Of a stretch of 64,000 nt of DNA, positions 2,503 to 39,369 are shown one piece after another. The stretch's first letter is position 1. Each line of letters begins with the position of its first letter. The DNA lies in contig OY282353.1 of NCBI GenBank assembly GCA_958295465.1, positions 930,001 through 994,000 on the forward strand, in the 5' to 3' direction. The notes below the pieces were generated by a model. It was not told the DNA's origin, did no database searches, and saw only the letters and a list, made by a program, of their open reading frames with translations. The stretch is from an uncultured Gammaproteobacteria bacterium (GTDB taxonomy: Bacteria; Pseudomonadota; Gammaproteobacteria; HK1). The position numbers and the translations under genes were made by a program.

Positions 2503-3324
2503 TCAATCTATCAGCTTTCCGTGCTCGTCGAAGAATGGGTAGGGTCCGGCGAAATCGCCGATAAAGCTCAGATGGCTGATGAGACCCGTGTCCTCCCGCC
2601 ACTGATGGAGCTGGCAGGCCGCGGGCTCGATGAAGAAGCACGGAGGACTCTTCTCGCGCAGATCGAGCGCGACATTGTGCGACGGACCCGGGGCGATGGT
2701 GGCGGTGACACCATGCCACAGGAGCTGGATTGGCCTGTGTACATGGCCGCACATGACCCTGATCACCTGCGGGTGCGATTCGATCAGCGCGCCCAGCGCT
2801 TCGCCGGCATCGCAGTTCTGGACGTCCATGTGGGCAATGCCGGTCAGGAACGGTGGATGGTGCATGAAGATGGCGGTCGGACGGTCGGGGGCCCGCGTCA
2901 GGGTCTGGTCGAGCCACTGCAGGCGTCGGGCACACACCGTCCCGCCCGGTGCACCCGGAATGGTGGTGTCAAGGCCGATCAGCCGGACCGGATAGTCCTC
3001 CACGACGTATTGCAGAAACTCCCCGTCGCTCGGCAGGTAGTCGTGGTCGGAGAAGGCACGGCGAAGATTCTCGCGATCATCGTGATTTCCGGGGATCACG
3101 TAAACGGGACATTCCAGGGGGGCGATCAGCCGCCGCAACAGACGGTATTCCTCCGGCCTCCCGAAGTCTGCGAGATCGCCGGTCATCAGCACGATGTCGG
3201 GTCTCGGATCCAGTCGGACGAGATGCCCGACACAGCGTGCCAGATTGGCCGCGGTATCCACTTTCCGATAGGCCAGTCTCCCTTCGGACTTGATATGGGT
3301 ATCGGTGATCTGTGCGATCAGCAT
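2503..3324 (-). CDS. Calcineurin-like metallophosphoesterase (CpdA/GpdQ type)
   Basis: This 273-residue cytoplasmic protein carries the dinuclear metal motifs of class III phosphodiesterases: DTH at residues 8-10, GDL near 48-50, GNHD near 79-82, the HHPP block near 154 and GHVH near 194. Length and motif order match CpdA (cAMP phosphodiesterase) and GpdQ (glycerophosphodiesterase). It lies 22 bp downstream of the ABC transporter ATPase on the same strand. Similar phosphodiesterases often accompany importers of phosphodiester or polyol substrates, so it probably hydrolyses a substrate of that transporter rather than cAMP; this is inference. ATG start at 3324. Confidence 0.88.
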   Translation of the reverse strand: MLIAQITDTHIKSEGRLAYRKVDTAANLARCVGHLVRLDPRPDIVLMTGDLADFGRPEEYRLLRRLIAPLECPVYVIPGNHDDRENLRRAFSDHDYLPSDGEFLQYVVEDYPVRLIGLDTTIPGAPGGTVCARRLQWLDQTLTRAPDRPTAIFMHHPPFLTGIAHMDVQNCDAGEALGALIESHPQVIRVMCGHVHRPIQLLWHGVTATIAPGPSHNVALDLREKSPPCFFIEPAACQLHQWREDTGLISHLSFIGDFAGPYPFFDEHGKLID

Positions 3325-22648: not shown

Positions 22649-23194
22649 ATGGGTGAGAACACGGACGGTACGCTGGCTCGCCGGGCTGCCGCGGGGGACC
22701 GGGATGCGTTCGCCGCGCTGATCGAGCGTCACTACGATCGGGTCTACCGGATCGGTGCCCGTGTGCTCGGCGACGCCGAAGAGGCGGCGGATCTGGCGCA
22801 GGACGTCTGTGTCGGTCTGCCCGCCAAGCTCCCGTCCTATCGCGGTGAGAGCCGGTTCACCACCTGGCTCTACCGAGTAGTGGTCAACGCCGCGCGCGAT
22901 GCGTTGCGCCGCAAGGCCGCCCGACAGCGCAGCGAGCGGAGCTATTCCGAGGCCGATGCACTGGAGCGCGCCGGGAACGCCGCTCGCGAGTGCGAGTCAT
23001 TCTGGCTGCAACAAGTCTTGGGCCAGTTGTCGGAAGAGCTGCGGACTACGGTGGCCCTCGTGCTCGAAGAGGGCTTGCGGCACGCGGAGGCGGGCGAAGT
23101 GCTTGGCGTGTCGGAGGCAACCGTGTCCTGGCGGATGCACGAGGTACGGAAGCGGCTGCGTGCCTTGGCCGCCAATGAGGAGGGAGTGCCGTGA
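22649..23194 (+). CDS. ECF-type RNA polymerase sigma factor
   Basis: At 181 residues it has region 2 (LIERHYDRVYRIGARVLGDA, then DLAQDVCVGL and the SRFTTWLYRVVVNAARDALRR segment) and region 4 with a helix-turn-helix (HAEAGEVLGVSEATVSWRMH). The region 2.2 element reads AQDVCVGL instead of the common AQDVFLRV. Its stop overlaps the start of the VWA protein, so the two are translationally coupled. That protein has anti-sigma-like topology and probably controls this factor. ATG start at 22649. Confidence 0.92.
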   Translation: MGENTDGTLARRAAAGDRDAFAALIERHYDRVYRIGARVLGDAEEAADLAQDVCVGLPAKLPSYRGESRFTTWLYRVVVNAARDALRRKAARQRSERSYSEADALERAGNAARECESFWLQQVLGQLSEELRTTVALVLEEGLRHAEAGEVLGVSEATVSWRMHEVRKRLRALAANEEGVP

Positions 23195-25569
23195 CTGACG
23201 ATCTCGCGAGGCTGGAATCGGCGCTTCGCGCCACCCCGCCACGGCCGCCGGCGGCGGCACGCGAGCGGGCGATCCTTGCGGCGAAGGAGGCTTTCGATCG
23301 CCGCCACCAAGGAACGCGCGGTGGGGCGCGTCACAAAGGACAGGTGCCGAAACGCGGCACGTCCTGGATATGGAGACTTGTCATGCAAATGTCGCGCCCC
23401 TCTCTCGCGTTCGCCGGCAGTGCCGCTGTCGTGGTCGTCGCAGGGGTCGTTTCCTATCAGATCCTGGTGACACCTCAACCGCTGCAGCCGGCGGGGTCGG
23501 TGGAGATTGAGCGGCGTCTCCCAGCCGGAGACCTCGCAAGTATCGACCGGACGAACACCGCCGACGAGCTTGCCGATGATGCCGCACTGCCGCAGCCGGC
23601 GGGGTTGGCGGAGATTGAGCGGCGTCTCCCAGCCGGAGACCCCGCAAGTATCGACCGGACGAACACCGCCGACGAGCTTGCCGATGCCGCCGCACTGCCG
23701 CAGCCGGCGGGGTTGGCGGAGATTGAGCGGCGTCTCCCAGCCGGAGACCCCGCAAGTATCGACCGGACGAACACCGCCGACGAGCTTGCCGATGATGCCG
23801 CACTGCCGCAGCCGGTGAGGTTGGCGGAGATTGAGCGGCGTCTCCCAGCCGGAGGCCCCGCAAGTATCGACCGGACGAACACCGCCGACGAGCTTGCCGA
23901 TGATGCCGCACTGCCGCAGCCGGTGAGGTTGGCGGAGATTGAGCGGCGTCTCCCAGCCGGAGGCCCCGCAAGTATCGACCGGACGAACACCGTCGACGAG
24001 CTTGTCGATGATGCCGCACTGCTGCAGCTAGCGGAGTTGGTGGAGGGTCTCACAGCCGGAGTCCCCGCAACCGCAAGTATCCGCGGGGAGAGCACCGTCA
24101 GGGTAGTCGAGTCTGATGCGAGCCATTACCGCGGGCAGGGACGCAATCGCTTCACCGATTTCGATTCCAACCCCGTGAAGGTGGCCGCCGAGGAGCCGGT
24201 ATCGACCTTCTCGATCGACGTCGACACTGCCTCCTACGGTTTCATGCGCGCTTCGCTGAACGAAGGCATGTTGCCGGAGAAAGACGCGGTGCGCATCGAG
24301 GAGCTGATCAACTACTTCCCCTATGACTACGCGCCGCCCGAGGCCCCGGACACGCCGTTCGCCGCCCATGTCTCCGTGATGCCGGCACCCTGGAACGACG
24401 CGGCCCGGCTGATGCATATCGGCATCAAGGGCTATGTACCGGATCGCCGCGCTGCACCGCGCGCGAACCTGGTGTTCCTGATTGACACCTCGGGCTCCAT
24501 GGACGCGCCGAACAAGCTGCCACTGCTGATCAACTCGCTCAAGCTTCTGCTGGACGCGCTGACACCTGAGGATCGGGTAGCGATCGTGACTTACGCCGGC
24601 TCGGCAGGCGTGGTCCTCGCACCGACCCAAGTGGCCGAGCGGGCCAGGATCCGGGCGAGCCTCGAACGTCTCCGCGCTCGCGGATCGACGGCTGGCGCCG
24701 AAGGGATCCGCGAAGCCTACCGGCTGGCCGAGCAGCACCTGGTCGAGGACGGCATCAATCGAGTCATCCTCGCCACCGACGGGGATTTCAACGTCGGCAT
24801 CACCGAACCAGAGGAATTGGAACGTTACATCACACGCCAACGCGCGAGCGGAGTGTTTCTCTCGGTGCTCGGCTTCGGCATGGGCAACTACAACGATGCG
24901 CTGATGCAGCGCCTGGCCCAGAACGGTAATGGCAACGCCGCCTATATCGACAGCCTGTCGGAGGCGCGCAAGGTGCTGGTCGAGGAAGCCACCTCGACCC
25001 TGTTCCCTATCGCCAAGGACGTCAAGATCCAGGTGGAGTTCAATCCCGCGGCGATCAGCGAGTATCGTCTGATCGGCTACGAAACCAGGATGCTCGCACG
25101 CGAGGATTTTCGCAATGACAAGGTTGATGCGGGTGAGATCGGCGCCGGCCACACGGTGACTGCCATCTATGAGGTGACACCGGTGGGCTTGGGGGCCGAG
25201 CGCATTGCGCCGCTTCGCTATCGTCGCGAGGGGACGGAACCGGACACCGTCTTCGATGGCGAATTCGCCTTTCTCAAGATTCGCTACAAGCTGCCCGGCT
25301 CCGACACCAGCACCCTGATCACACGGCCGGTAAACGCTGCAGACGCATTCGAGAGCGTCGACTCCGCTCCGCGGGAGGCGCGTTTCGCCGCGGCGGTCGC
25401 CGCATTCGGGGAGCTCCTGCGCGGCGGGCGCTACACCGGCGACTACGGCTATGGTGACGTGATTGCGCTCGCGCACGGCGGGCGCGGCGAGGACCCCTTC
25501 GGCTACCGGGCCGAGTTCATCGGCCTCGTTCGTCTGGCCCAGTCCGTGGCCGCCATGGAACCATGGTGA
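23191..25569 (+). CDS. Membrane-anchored VWA domain protein (YfbK-like) with five tandem repeats
   Basis: This 792-residue protein starts at the GTG at 23191, overlapping the sigma factor stop. A cytoplasmic Arg-rich N-terminus of about 70 residues is followed by one membrane helix (FAGSAAVVVVAGVVSYQIL), then five repeats of a 36-residue unit. Next come a YfbK N-terminal domain (EPVSTFSIDVDTASYGFMR), a VWA domain with an intact MIDAS (DTSGSMD near residue 432) and the DUF3520 C-terminus. The topology resembles an anti-sigma factor with an outside sensor. Control of the sigma factor is inference from coupling. The repeat block is not part of the normal family. Confidence 0.88.
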   Translation: MTDDLARLESALRATPPRPPAAARERAILAAKEAFDRRHQGTRGGARHKGQVPKRGTSWIWRLVMQMSRPSLAFAGSAAVVVVAGVVSYQILVTPQPLQPAGSVEIERRLPAGDLASIDRTNTADELADDAALPQPAGLAEIERRLPAGDPASIDRTNTADELADAAALPQPAGLAEIERRLPAGDPASIDRTNTADELADDAALPQPVRLAEIERRLPAGGPASIDRTNTADELADDAALPQPVRLAEIERRLPAGGPASIDRTNTVDELVDDAALLQLAELVEGLTAGVPATASIRGESTVRVVESDASHYRGQGRNRFTDFDSNPVKVAAEEPVSTFSIDVDTASYGFMRASLNEGMLPEKDAVRIEELINYFPYDYAPPEAPDTPFAAHVSVMPAPWNDAARLMHIGIKGYVPDRRAAPRANLVFLIDTSGSMDAPNKLPLLINSLKLLLDALTPEDRVAIVTYAGSAGVVLAPTQVAERARIRASLERLRARGSTAGAEGIREAYRLAEQHLVEDGINRVILATDGDFNVGITEPEELERYITRQRASGVFLSVLGFGMGNYNDALMQRLAQNGNGNAAYIDSLSEARKVLVEEATSTLFPIAKDVKIQVEFNPAAISEYRLIGYETRMLAREDFRNDKVDAGEIGAGHTVTAIYEVTPVGLGAERIAPLRYRREGTEPDTVFDGEFAFLKIRYKLPGSDTSTLITRPVNAADAFESVDSAPREARFAAAVAAFGELLRGGRYTGDYGYGDVIALAHGGRGEDPFGYRAEFIGLVRLAQSVAAMEPW
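23467..24006. repeat. 108-bp tandem repeat, five copies, inside the VWA gene
   Basis: The landmark GAGATTGAGCGGCGTCTC recurs at 23503, 23611, 23719, 23827 and 23935, exactly 108 bp apart. Copies differ at few positions, and the last one is the most diverged. Each encodes 36 residues including EIERRLPAGDPASIDRTNTA. The spacing keeps the frame, so unit gain or loss would change only stalk length. Confidence 0.96.
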
Positions 25570-29013: not shown

Positions 29014-29997
29014 TCAGACGATCCGGTTGACGAGCACACCCTCCCCTCGCTGAAGACGGCGAACGTTGTCGATGAGGACGTCCACCACGTTGTCCTCGTA
29101 CTTTCGGGTCTCACCGGCGGTGTGGGGCGTGATCAGCACGTTCTCCGGATCCCATAGTGCGGAGTCGGGAGCCAGCGGCTCCTCCCAGGTGGTGTCGATG
29201 CCGGCGCCGGCGATCGCGCCGCGTTCGAGGGCGTCGACCAGGTCCGGCTCGTTGACACAACGCCCGCGGGCGACGTTGATGAGGTAGGCGCCGCGCTTCA
29301 TCCGCGCCAGCGCCGCCGCGTCGATCAGGTGCTCCGTTTGCGGCGTCAGCGGGCACGTGAGCGCGACGACGTCCGCCTCGGCGAGTGATTCGGGAAACCG
29401 TTCCGGGGGACGCACCTCATCGGCGGAGCCGTCGTGGCTCGCGGTGTCGCGCTTGATCCCGACGACCCTCATCTCGAACGCACGGGCGAGCCGGGCCAGC
29501 CGCGAGCCGATGGCGCCGAGCCCGCAGATCACCATCGTCTTGCCGGCAAGCTCCTCCTCGCGCCGCCCGAGGTCGGAGATCATCCCTCGCCAGACGCGCT
29601 CGCGCTGCCGGTCGCGTCCGGTATGGACGTGGCGCACGAGCGCGAGCAGCAGGGCCATCGCGTGGTCGCTCACCGCGTTGCGGTTGACGCCGCTGCCGTT
29701 GGCGAGCCGCACCCCGCGGGCTCGCAGCGCATCAAGATCGAACTGGTCGTAGCCCGCCGCGCACACCTGGATGAAGCGGAGGTTCGCGGCGCGCTCCAGC
29801 ATCGCGTCCGACCAGAAGCCGGACATCACCAGGACGTGTCCCTCGGAGATGCGGGCGAGGGTGTCCTCGCGGCTCCAGGTCTGGAAGTGTTCGATCCCGG
29901 TCCGGCGCAGTGCGAACCGTTCGGCGAGCCGGTACGCGACGTGGGCGAAATGGATGACGAGGGCATCGTCGTCCGGCAGGCGGGGGGCATCGGGCAT
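29014..29997 (-). CDS. D-2-hydroxyacid dehydrogenase (NAD-dependent)
   Basis: The 327-residue protein starts at the ATG at 29997. The NAD-binding domain has VICGLGAIGSRLARLARAF and the catalytic signature MKRGAYLINVARGRCVNE with Arg in NVARG. The Glu follows in EPLAPDSALW and the His in ITPHTAGE. It should interconvert a 2-hydroxyacid and a 2-oxoacid. It diverges from the RuBisCO-like/cupin gene across a 66-bp shared promoter region, so the two may serve one pathway, perhaps sugar-acid catabolism. Confidence 0.9.
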   Translation of the reverse strand: MPDAPRLPDDDALVIHFAHVAYRLAERFALRRTGIEHFQTWSREDTLARISEGHVLVMSGFWSDAMLERAANLRFIQVCAAGYDQFDLDALRARGVRLANGSGVNRNAVSDHAMALLLALVRHVHTGRDRQRERVWRGMISDLGRREEELAGKTMVICGLGAIGSRLARLARAFEMRVVGIKRDTASHDGSADEVRPPERFPESLAEADVVALTCPLTPQTEHLIDAAALARMKRGAYLINVARGRCVNEPDLVDALERGAIAGAGIDTTWEEPLAPDSALWDPENVLITPHTAGETRKYEDNVVDVLIDNVRRLQRGEGVLVNRIV

Positions 29998-30063: not shown

Positions 30064-31650
30064 ATGACCGAGCCGACCCGGACCACCGGCGATCGAATCG
30101 TCGCCACCTACGAGCTTCACGACCCCGGACGCTCCCCGGAAGCCCTCGCCGCCGCGATCGCCCTGGAGCAGACGGTGGAGGTGCCGCAAGCGCTGGCGGA
30201 AGCCGCCGGCCTTCCCCCCGGCGTCGTGGGCGAGATCGAGCGGATCGATCGCGGCGCGGCGGGCGCCGCACGAGCGGTCCTGAGCTACGACCCCGCGGTG
30301 GTGGAGGCGGGCGGCGTACCGGCGCTCGTCAACCTCGTGTTCGGCAACGTCTCGATGATGCCCGGCGTGCGGCTGGTGGATCTCGCCTTCCCCGACCGCG
30401 TGCTCGCGACCTTCGACGGACCGCGTCACGGGGTGGCCGGCGTACGGGCGCTCACCGGCGTGTACGGCCGTCCGCTGCTCGCCACCGCACTCAAGCCGCG
30501 GGGCGTCCCGGTCGCCCGGCTGGTGGAGATGGCGGGCGCCTTCGCGCGCGGCGGCGGCGACGTCCTCAAGGACGACCAGAACCTCATCGACGGGTTCGAG
30601 GCGTTCAAGGACCGCGTGAAGCGATGCGCCGATGCGGTGGACGATGCGAACCAGCGCACCGGACGGCGCTGCCTGTACCTCCCCCACGTCACCGGTCCCT
30701 TGCCGTCGCTCGCCCGCCGGTTCGAGTACGTGGCGCGGCTCGGGCTCCCGGGCGTGCTCGCCTGCCCCTTCATCGCGGGGCTCGGCACCGCCCGCTCGCT
30801 CGCGCGCGATCACGACCTGGTGCTCATGGCGCACCCCGCCTTCTCCGGAGGCCACTTCGTCTCGCGGCGGGAGGGTATCGAGCACGGACTGTTGTTCGGG
30901 ACCCTGCTTCGCATCGCCGGGGCGGACGTCGCGGTCTTCCCCAACACCGGGGGCCGGTTCGAGTTCGGCCGGAAGGATTGTGCGAGCATCGCGGCGCGGC
31001 TTCGCGCGCCGCTGGGCCGGCTGCCGCCCGCCTGGCCGTGCCCGGCCGGCGGGATGGGCTTCGGGCAGCTTCCCGGGATGTGCGCCGACTACGGCCCCGA
31101 CGCGGTGCTGCTGATCGGCGGCGCGCTCATCGGGCATGGCGAAGACCTCGAAGCGAGCACCCGCTCGTTCCTCGACGTCGTCCGCGCCAACTCGGCGGAA
31201 CGCCTGGAGCCGCCCCGGCCCCTTCCCGGGCCACCCGCCGATGCCCGCGCGCCGCGGGTGCTGGCCCACCGGCCGGGGTTCGAATGGAACGGCCGGCCGA
31301 GCTCCGCCTACAAGGACGCGCGCGATCTCGCGGAGGGCCTGGCCTTCAAGGGGGTGCGCAGGGTCGAGCTCGTCGGACGGTTCGGCGAGCCCACCCGCAC
31401 GGATCTGCGCTACTTCGAGATCGAGCCGGGCGGATACTCGAGCCTGGAGAAGCACTTGCACACCCACATCGTGATCGGCGCCCGCGGCCGCGGCGTGCTC
31501 GTCCTCGGAAACCGCCGGGAGACGCTGGCGCCGATGGACGTCGCCTGCATCGGGCCGCTGGAGGCCCACCAGTTGCGCAACGAATCGTCCGAGCCGTTCG
31601 GGTTCTTCTGTATCGTCGACCATGACCGGGACCGGCCCGTGGCGCCGTGA
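30064..31650 (+). CDS. RuBisCO-like protein (form IV) fused to a C-terminal cupin
   Basis: The protein has 528 residues from the ATG at 30064. Residues 1-390 are a RuBisCO large-subunit fold: VFGNVSMMPGVRLVDL, LLATALKPRGV with Lys144 at the position of RuBisCO Lys175, and GGGDVLKDDQN at 163-173, where Lys169 and Asp171 align with Lys201 and Asp203 but Glu204 is replaced by Gln172. The C-terminal part keeps MAHPAFSGG and GGALIGHG. Residues about 430-520 form a cupin: HLHTH at 464-468 and PLEAHQLRN at 498-506. RuBisCO-like proteins act in methylthioribulose and apionate-type pathways, and a separate cupin works next to one in the methylthioadenosine-isoprenoid shunt. The fused order here suggests two consecutive steps. 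The substrate is unknown. Confidence 0.87.
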   Translation: MTEPTRTTGDRIVATYELHDPGRSPEALAAAIALEQTVEVPQALAEAAGLPPGVVGEIERIDRGAAGAARAVLSYDPAVVEAGGVPALVNLVFGNVSMMPGVRLVDLAFPDRVLATFDGPRHGVAGVRALTGVYGRPLLATALKPRGVPVARLVEMAGAFARGGGDVLKDDQNLIDGFEAFKDRVKRCADAVDDANQRTGRRCLYLPHVTGPLPSLARRFEYVARLGLPGVLACPFIAGLGTARSLARDHDLVLMAHPAFSGGHFVSRREGIEHGLLFGTLLRIAGADVAVFPNTGGRFEFGRKDCASIAARLRAPLGRLPPAWPCPAGGMGFGQLPGMCADYGPDAVLLIGGALIGHGEDLEASTRSFLDVVRANSAERLEPPRPLPGPPADARAPRVLAHRPGFEWNGRPSSAYKDARDLAEGLAFKGVRRVELVGRFGEPTRTDLRYFEIEPGGYSSLEKHLHTHIVIGARGRGVLVLGNRRETLAPMDVACIGPLEAHQLRNESSEPFGFFCIVDHDRDRPVAP

Positions 31651-33541: not shown

Positions 33542-34900
33542 TCACCGCGCGACGATGCCGCCGTACTTCGCGACGAAGCGCCCCCACGCCGCATCCGCCG
33601 CCGCACCGGCGTCGTCGATCAGCGCCCGCGCGTCCGCCGTCTTCAGCTCGAAGTCCTCGACGAGGACGTTGCCGTCGACCATCACCAGCTCCACGTCCTT
33701 CGAATGCGCGTGGTACACGAGGTTCTGCACCGGATCGAGGGTCGGGGTCAGGCCGAAGCGGCGGTAGTCGAGCATCTGGAGATCGGCGCGCTTGCCGGGC
33801 TCGATGGAGCCGATCTCGGCCCCCATCCCCAGCGCCTCCGCGCCGCCCATCGTCGCGAGCCGCAGGACCTCGGGGCATTGCATGACCGTCGCGCTGCCGG
33901 TCTTGATCCGGGCCATGGTCACGCACGCCCGCAGCACCTCGAAGTGATCCGCGAACATGTTGTCGATGCCGAGGGAGACCGGGATGCCGCGGGACCGGTA
34001 CTCGACCACCGGCGCGATGTGCCCGCGCACCGCGTTCATCAGCGGGCAGTGCGCGACGGCGGCCTTCGACGCGGCGAGCACGTCCACGTCCGGGTCGGCG
34101 ACGACGTAGCAGTGCGCACAGACCGTGTCCGCGGCGAGCATCCCCGAATCGCGCGCGTACTCGAACGAGCTCCGGCCGCGCAGGCGTTGCATCACCTCCA
34201 CCTCGTACTCGCCCCACCCGAGGTGGATGCTGGTGCGCAAGCCCATCCGGTCCGCGGTCTCGCGGCTCGCGCGCAGCAGCTCCGGGGAGGAGGAGATGGT
34301 CATGTTCGGGGTCATCATCACCCGGATGCGTCCGTCCGCCCTGCCGTGCCAGCGCTCCGCGAAGTCCACCGCCTGGCGAAGCTGGGCCTCCCGCAGCGCT
34401 TCGTCGTAGCGGTACTCGTCCTTGGCCATCGCATCGACGTCGACGTCGAAGGTCATCACGCCCATGAAGCTGCGCACCCCGAGCGATTCGACGAAGGGAG
34501 CGAAGACGTCGGCCTCCTCCTCCATCTCCAGCGTGGTGGTCACCCCGCTCTTCAGAAGCTCCGCGTAGGTGAGCGACCCGACCGCGAGGCGCTCCTCGCG
34601 GCTCGCGACCGTGGCCATCGGGAAGTACTGGCCGGTCACGCAGCCGAGCCCCATGTCCTCGGCGCGTCCACGGAAGAAGGTATAGCCGACGTGGTTGTGG
34701 GTGCTGACGAAGCCGGGCAGCACGACCTTGCCGCGGCCGTCGATGACGCGCCCGGCGCCGGCCGCGTGCGCCGCCTCGACCCCGGCGCTCGGACCCACCG
34801 CGGCGATACGCCCGTTCTCGACGTAGACCGCGCCGCCCTCGATCACGCGGTCCGCGGCGTCCACCGTCAGCACGGTGGCGTTCCTGATGAGCAGGCTCAT
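33542..34900 (-). CDS. Amidohydrolase (TrzN/AtzA-like deaminase family)
   Basis: This 452-residue enzyme has the amidohydrolase barrel ligands: the HxH-like element in STHNHVGYTFFRG, the His in TSIHLGWGE, the CAHCY His and the Asp in SLGIDNMFADH. N- and C-terminal beta sandwich parts are present (LLIRNATVLTVDAAD and GKRADLQMLDYRRFG). The subgroup deaminates or dechlorinates aromatic N-heterocycles and similar compounds. The true substrate cannot be read. ATG start at 34900. Confidence 0.9.
   Translation of the reverse strand: MSLLIRNATVLTVDAADRVIEGGAVYVENGRIAAVGPSAGVEAAHAAGAGRVIDGRGKVVLPGFVSTHNHVGYTFFRGRAEDMGLGCVTGQYFPMATVASREERLAVGSLTYAELLKSGVTTTLEMEEEADVFAPFVESLGVRSFMGVMTFDVDVDAMAKDEYRYDEALREAQLRQAVDFAERWHGRADGRIRVMMTPNMTISSSPELLRASRETADRMGLRTSIHLGWGEYEVEVMQRLRGRSSFEYARDSGMLAADTVCAHCYVVADPDVDVLAASKAAVAHCPLMNAVRGHIAPVVEYRSRGIPVSLGIDNMFADHFEVLRACVTMARIKTGSATVMQCPEVLRLATMGGAEALGMGAEIGSIEPGKRADLQMLDYRRFGLTPTLDPVQNLVYHAHSKDVELVMVDGNVLVEDFELKTADARALIDDAGAAADAAWGRFVAKYGGIVAR

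Positions 34901-35496: not shown

Positions 35497-39369
<3,873 letters not shown>

Follow-up and report, generated by a model that had tools for sequence, protein, structure and literature searches.

The closest described counterparts of the gene reported here are two separate proteins of the methylthioadenosine (MTA)-isoprenoid shunt. In R. palustris, the DeepYkr RuBisCO-like protein (RLP) RLP1 acts in the same pathway as a cupin; deletion of the cupin lowers the release of methanethiol from MTA, 1-methylthioxylulose-5-phosphate (MTXu-5P) builds up without it, and both steps are supported in vivo by strains deleted for rlp1 or for the cupin (PMC5893883). Glutathione is the thiol of the split enzyme known so far (PMC5893883). 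RLP and cupin enzymes have also been suggested as the source of DXP in five species possessing both, the origin of DXP in bacteria whose MEP pathway is complete except for Dxs being an open question (PMC10663253).

A single frame for two domains

The window analysed here is a stretch of 64,000 nucleotides from an uncultured gammaproteobacterium (GCA_958295465.1, contig OY282353.1, positions 930,001 to 994,000). Its initial annotation had described a RuBisCO-like domain and a cupin in a single 528-residue frame, with coordinates that proved exact and a domain content on which Pfam, PDB and AlphaFold2 (AF2) agree. The frame runs from an ATG at 30064 to a stop at 31648-31650 without internal stops, and the gene is present in one copy in the 5.68 Mb single-contig genome. 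The features are as follows.

29014-29997, - strand: D-2-hydroxyacid dehydrogenase
30064..31650, + strand: fused gene, 528 aa, DeepYkr-type RuBisCO-like domain plus methylsulfurylase-type cupin (single frame; Pfam, NCBIfam and PDB matches; AF2 model)
30085..31188, + strand: RuBisCO-like domain, residues ~8-375, predicted 5-methylthioribulose-1-phosphate 1,3-isomerase (3qfw match, VIA-align, tree)
30493..30495, + strand: K144, equivalent of RuBisCO K175 (alignment with RuBisCO loci L019/L020; invariant)
30568..30579, + strand: K169-D170-D171-Q172, equivalents of K201, D203 and E204; E204 is Q here and H in most homologues
30955..30957, + strand: R298 in GGRF, at the position of loop-6 K334 (alignment with RuBisCO)
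31189..31275, + strand: Pro-rich interdomain linker, residues ~376-404 (length varies in the alignment; lowered pLDDT)
31276..31647, + strand: cupin domain, residues ~405-528, predicted MTXu-5P methylsulfurylase (homology to Rru_A2000 (3jzv), 3kgz and 3ibm)
31453..31467, + strand: H464, H466 and H468, HxHxH, predicted metal ligands (invariant in 60 fused, 14 split and 3 reference cupins)
31567..31572, + strand: H502-Q503, cupin motif 2 (invariant)
31609..31611, + strand: C516, predicted nucleophile taking the methylthio group (sole Cys conserved across all 77 cupins compared)

Pfam places RuBisCO_large at residues 124-366 (E 5.9e-20) and Cupin_2 at residues 450-517 (E 2.7e-7), each exceeding its gathering score. 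In the AF2 model (mean pLDDT 91.8) both domains are well folded, and the confidence drops only near the linker and the N-terminus. Near relatives (97, 85 and 81% identical) have the same fusion, as do dozens of distant genomes, which excludes an assembly join or frameshift. The initial annotation had regarded such a join, or the lack of any other genome with the fusion, as fatal to its reading; both were examined and neither holds. An artefact joining two genes, in favour of which nothing was found, has a practically negligible probability given the single open frame and the recurrence of the architecture in near and distant independent assemblies, complete genomes included.

The RuBisCO-like half

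In a PDB sequence search the N-terminal half is closest to the RLP 3qfw of R. palustris (residues 8-373, E 9.4e-62), on which it also superposes best in the fold comparison (VIA-align Z 44.9, 1.9 A over 347 residues), the identity of the two being about 35%. 3qfw is presumably RLP1, since the PDB has one further RLP of R. palustris, 2qyg, under the name RLP2. A phylogeny of the RLP domain, a check that had been proposed together with the first reading of the frame, unites the fused RLP and 3qfw in the DeepYkr clade (SH-aLRT 97) and leaves the MtnW references and the RuBisCO loci outside; judged by its sequence, the RuBisCO-like half is a member of that clade.

When mapped on the RuBisCO loci L019 and L020, the RLP half keeps E60, N123, K175, K201, D203 and H294, and is changed at E204 (to H or Q) and K334 (to R). 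The catalytic pattern of 3qfw, which has H at E204, is identical to that of the fused RLP, while the MtnW pattern differs. Among the fused proteins the E204 position is occupied by H in 35, Q in 22 and N in one, and the change from H to Q was therefore rejected as a hallmark of the fusion.

Both the MtnW and the OiaX models match the RuBisCO-like domain, as would be expected of an oxo-isoapionate or MtnW-type (diketo-methylthiopentyl-P enolase) enzyme acting in sugar catabolism or classical methionine salvage, but such an assignment is extremely improbable. The MtnW models reach 210.7 bits against a cut-off of 409 and 159.9 against 513.6, the tree and the catalytic pattern separate the fused RLP from the MtnW references, and mtnD is mostly absent from the fusion genomes; as for the oxo-isoapionate-type substrates put forward in the initial annotation, the OiaX match is partial, at 71.3 versus 700 bits, and does not support them.

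The cupin half

The C-terminal half matches the cupins 3ibm, 3jzv and 3kgz in the PDB search (E down to 2.1e-30), its homology to Rru_A2000 (3jzv) having an E of 9.6e-19. The fold search of the model returned RuBisCO-fold chains only, and since that domain fills the list, the cupin assignment rests on sequence. W408, E462, H464, H466, H468, H502, Q503 and C516 are identical in 74 fused or split cupins and in three solved relatives, including Rru_A2000. The domain had been described as a complete cupin with both metal motifs: the cupin itself and motif 2 stand, whereas the classical motif 1, G(X)5HXH(X)3,4E(X)6G, is without its Glu. From its conservation, C516 is predicted to be the catalytic Cys that takes the methylthio group; a mechanism with Cys attack on the methylthio sulfur was reportedly given by Warlick et al. 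in 2012.

Spread and history of the fusion

In a panel of 94 relatives, most of them from the window's class, 11 genomes carry the full-length fusion; nine of them belong to the window's family and the remaining two to one further family each. The wider search for other fusions, likewise envisaged at the outset, covered 84,980 species genomes and returned at least 558 relatives. The best 80 of these comprise 57 single-frame fusions, 13 pairs of adjacent RLP and cupin genes, nine RLPs without a nearby cupin and one locus (L075) truncated by the end of its contig, these proportions being biased because the 80 were picked by similarity to the fused query. Fused members come from about 11 phyla (Pseudomonadota, Acidobacteriota, Planctomycetota, Nitrospirota, Fibrobacterota, Thermodesulfobacteriota, Sumerlaeota, Hydrogenedentota, Firestoneibacteriota, FCPU426 and KSB1). 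No paper describing the fusion was found in the open-access literature; an earlier mention is possible and the novelty is provisional.

All fused rows and ten lone rows form one group in the RLP tree (SH-aLRT 92), inside the DeepYkr clade (SH-aLRT 97) and beside the adjacent-gene forms and 3qfw; several of the lone RLPs have long branches and an unsure placement. In the cupin tree, 60 fused cupins lie on one side of a branch (SH-aLRT 97, from only 135 columns). The trees favour, as the simplest reading, a single fusion of neighbouring genes, after which the cupin was lost in some cases. A precursor of the sort from which such a fusion could arise is exemplified by the pair L015, where the RLP gene (1423-2622) and the cupin gene (2619-3077) overlap by 4 bases. 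Split homologues with adjacent genes include Meiothermus and Halorhodospira, genera that have been proposed as shunt candidates (PMC4958253). A plasmid of Terrarubrum flagellatum (NZ_CP091853.1) carries separate RLP and cupin genes (L131, 4995-7542) followed by cysE, encoding serine O-acetyltransferase, so that the pair can accompany sulfur genes on a replicon of mobile size.

The cupin-less RLPs L080, L082, L086, L078, L097 and L012 lie within the fused clade, and their genomes encode the family cupin separately elsewhere; in two further genomes with a lone RLP (G138 and G139, loci L090 and L091), none of the separate family cupins was seen. Cupins may, as is generally known, serve as sensory or structural domains, and one half of the fused protein could thus be catalytically dead or regulatory, leaving the other to work alone. 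The catalytic residues of both halves are, however, invariant throughout the fused set, and the separate same-family cupins that accompany several lone RLPs of the clade also argue against this arrangement, which appears highly unlikely.

Methionine-salvage genes and neighbourhood

The window's own genome encodes MtnA (E 2.1e-134) and has a match to the MTAP model of 274.9 bits, at its cut-off. The mtnA gene was found in 63 of 64 panel genomes, including all 40 with the fusion, and the sole exception (G001, of the same genus as the window's genome) has neither the fusion nor mtnA. In the relatives panel it is present in 11/11 fusion genomes versus 41/83 others (Fisher p 0.0009, a value that overstates independence because nine of the 11 represent one family). 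MTAP-family matches were obtained in 63 of the 64 genomes, many of them no stronger than related purine phosphorylases would give. Only one of the 40 fusion genomes (G096) has a convincing ARD (mtnD), and among the mtnA-bearing relatives it is present in 0/14 with a DeepYkr RLP versus 14/38 without (Fisher p 0.011). Possession of mtnA and of an MTA-phosphorylase-type homologue, mostly without mtnD, is consistent with the shunt. The initial annotation had already pointed to this pathway, a reading borne out by the gene content and by the placement of each half in one family with its R. rubrum or R. palustris counterpart.

An all-against-all comparison of frames at 80 loci brought out no widespread recurrent neighbour family, apart from the gene itself and frames that seem to be antisense or to reflect local synteny. 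Only in L021, the 97%-identical relative, do the dehydrogenase, SIR2, thioesterase and amidohydrolase of the window adjoin the fusion. The D-2-hydroxyacid dehydrogenase had been thought a possible member of the pathway, but it is not beside the fusion in the 81-85% relatives, and the suggestion was dropped. The amidohydrolase (33542-34900, - strand), about 2 kb from the fusion and keeping its place near it only in the 97% relative, has 5'-deoxyadenosine deaminase as its best model (287.5 bits, below the cut-off of 522).

Two repeat-bearing proteins are encoded elsewhere in the window. The large protein at 23191-25569 (+ strand) has several near-identical units of about 35 residues (LPQPAGLAEIERRLPAGDPASIDRTNTADELADDAA) near its N-terminus, preceding what by eye is an apparent von Willebrand type A domain, and the long repeat-rich protein at 35500-39366 (+ strand) has low-complexity repeats of the AAGKAAGPGSADS type and matches the F510_1955 glycosylhydrolase model below its cut-off.

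Proposed function of the fused protein

With the single frame, both family memberships, the conservation of residues, the spread of the fusion and the co-occurrence with mtnA established, the fused protein is very probably a bifunctional 5-methylthioribulose-1-phosphate isomerase/MTXu-5P methylsulfurylase of the MTA-isoprenoid shunt; its chemistry, substrates, reducing thiol and any channelling we infer. MTA from polyamine synthesis would undergo phosphorolysis by MtnP and isomerisation by MtnA, both separately encoded, to give 5-methylthioribulose-1-phosphate. The RuBisCO-like half would then enolise this substrate with the aid of a lysine-bound metal and shift its carbonyl, yielding MTXu-5P together with the ribulose epimer. 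C516 of the cupin half would attack the methylthio sulfur and DXP would depart as a metal-stabilised enolate, after which a thiol would free methanethiol to be rebuilt into methionine, DXP entering isoprenoid synthesis. The covalent link may serve to hand on the intermediate and to pull the first step forward. Counted against this role are the metal-ligand position E204, which is Q here and H in R. palustris, and the position of the fused gene, which is not near mtnP or mtnA in the window's genome. No measured activity of any fused protein was found in the open-access literature.

The variation between Q and H at the E204 position inside the fused clade, the lack of fixed neighbour genes and an identity to 3qfw of just about 35% would also suit the same two-step chemistry on a different 5-substituted ribulose-1-phosphate, such as another thioether sugar phosphate, in place of the MTA product. 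This is unlikely, as mtnA accompanies the fusion in every one of the 40 genomes searched, the catalytic pattern is of the 3qfw type and the conserved Cys suits C-S cleavage.

A possible DXP source in genomes without Dxs

Assuming the bifunctional shunt enzyme, its product bears on isoprenoid synthesis in part of the fusion genomes. Nine of the 40 (G060, G094, G095, G096, G097, G103, G106, G110 and G113), of which G060 is a single-contig genome, have no Dxs match above the cut-off; all nine retain Dxr and none has HMG-CoA reductase, and the fusion is therefore a candidate for supplying their DXP. The window's own genome has Dxs. It is conceivable, if rather doubtful, that in genomes which have the fusion, MtnA and Dxr but lack both Dxs and HMG-CoA reductase, DXP comes chiefly or entirely from the fused enzyme, isoprenoids thereby depending on MTA recycling; the supply of MTA may be too small for all isoprenoid synthesis. 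The absence of Dxs was rejected as a signature of the fusion, as it concerns 2/15 genomes with a DeepYkr RLP versus about 18/79 without in the class panel. RLP-less relatives also without Dxs by the TIGR00204 model include G029, G036, G057, G061, G063, G066 and G069, among others.

Comparison with known systems

The fusion is real, widespread and probably bifunctional, joining two known consecutive enzymes, and as a natural fusion it provides independent evidence for the successive action of the DeepYkr RLP and the cupin. It widens the range of the shunt from the some 25 species of Proteobacteria, Firmicutes and Meiothermus for which it has been listed (PMC5893883) to about eleven phyla, mostly uncultured, and supplies candidates for the origin of DXP in Dxs-less bacteria, the question raised earlier (PMC10663253). 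It also offers a testable single-polypeptide route from 5-methylthioribulose-1-phosphate to DXP, with a possible use in terpenoid engineering.

With the DeepYkr RLPs Rru_A1998 of R. rubrum and RPA2169 of R. palustris (5-methylthioribulose-1-phosphate 1,3-isomerase; structure 3qfw), the N-terminal half shares its fold, clade and catalytic pattern, but it is cupin-fused, has Q and not H at E204 and shares only about 35% identity with 3qfw. The cupin half is homologous to the MTXu-5P methylsulfurylase family of R. rubrum Rru_A2000 (3jzv), 3kgz and 3ibm, with invariant His and Cys; Rru_A2000 is a separate protein, whereas the cupin described here is a C-terminal domain in a distinct fused clade (SH-aLRT 97). 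The RuBisCO-like enolase MtnW of Bacillus and Geobacillus (2zvi, 2oek) has the RuBisCO fold and MTA salvage in common with it, yet catalyses another reaction and has other residues at the E60, N123, E204 and K334 positions. Tetrahymena MtnBD is likewise a natural fusion of two methionine-salvage enzymes, although there a dehydratase is joined to a dioxygenase in the oxygen-dependent pathway (PMC3698126).
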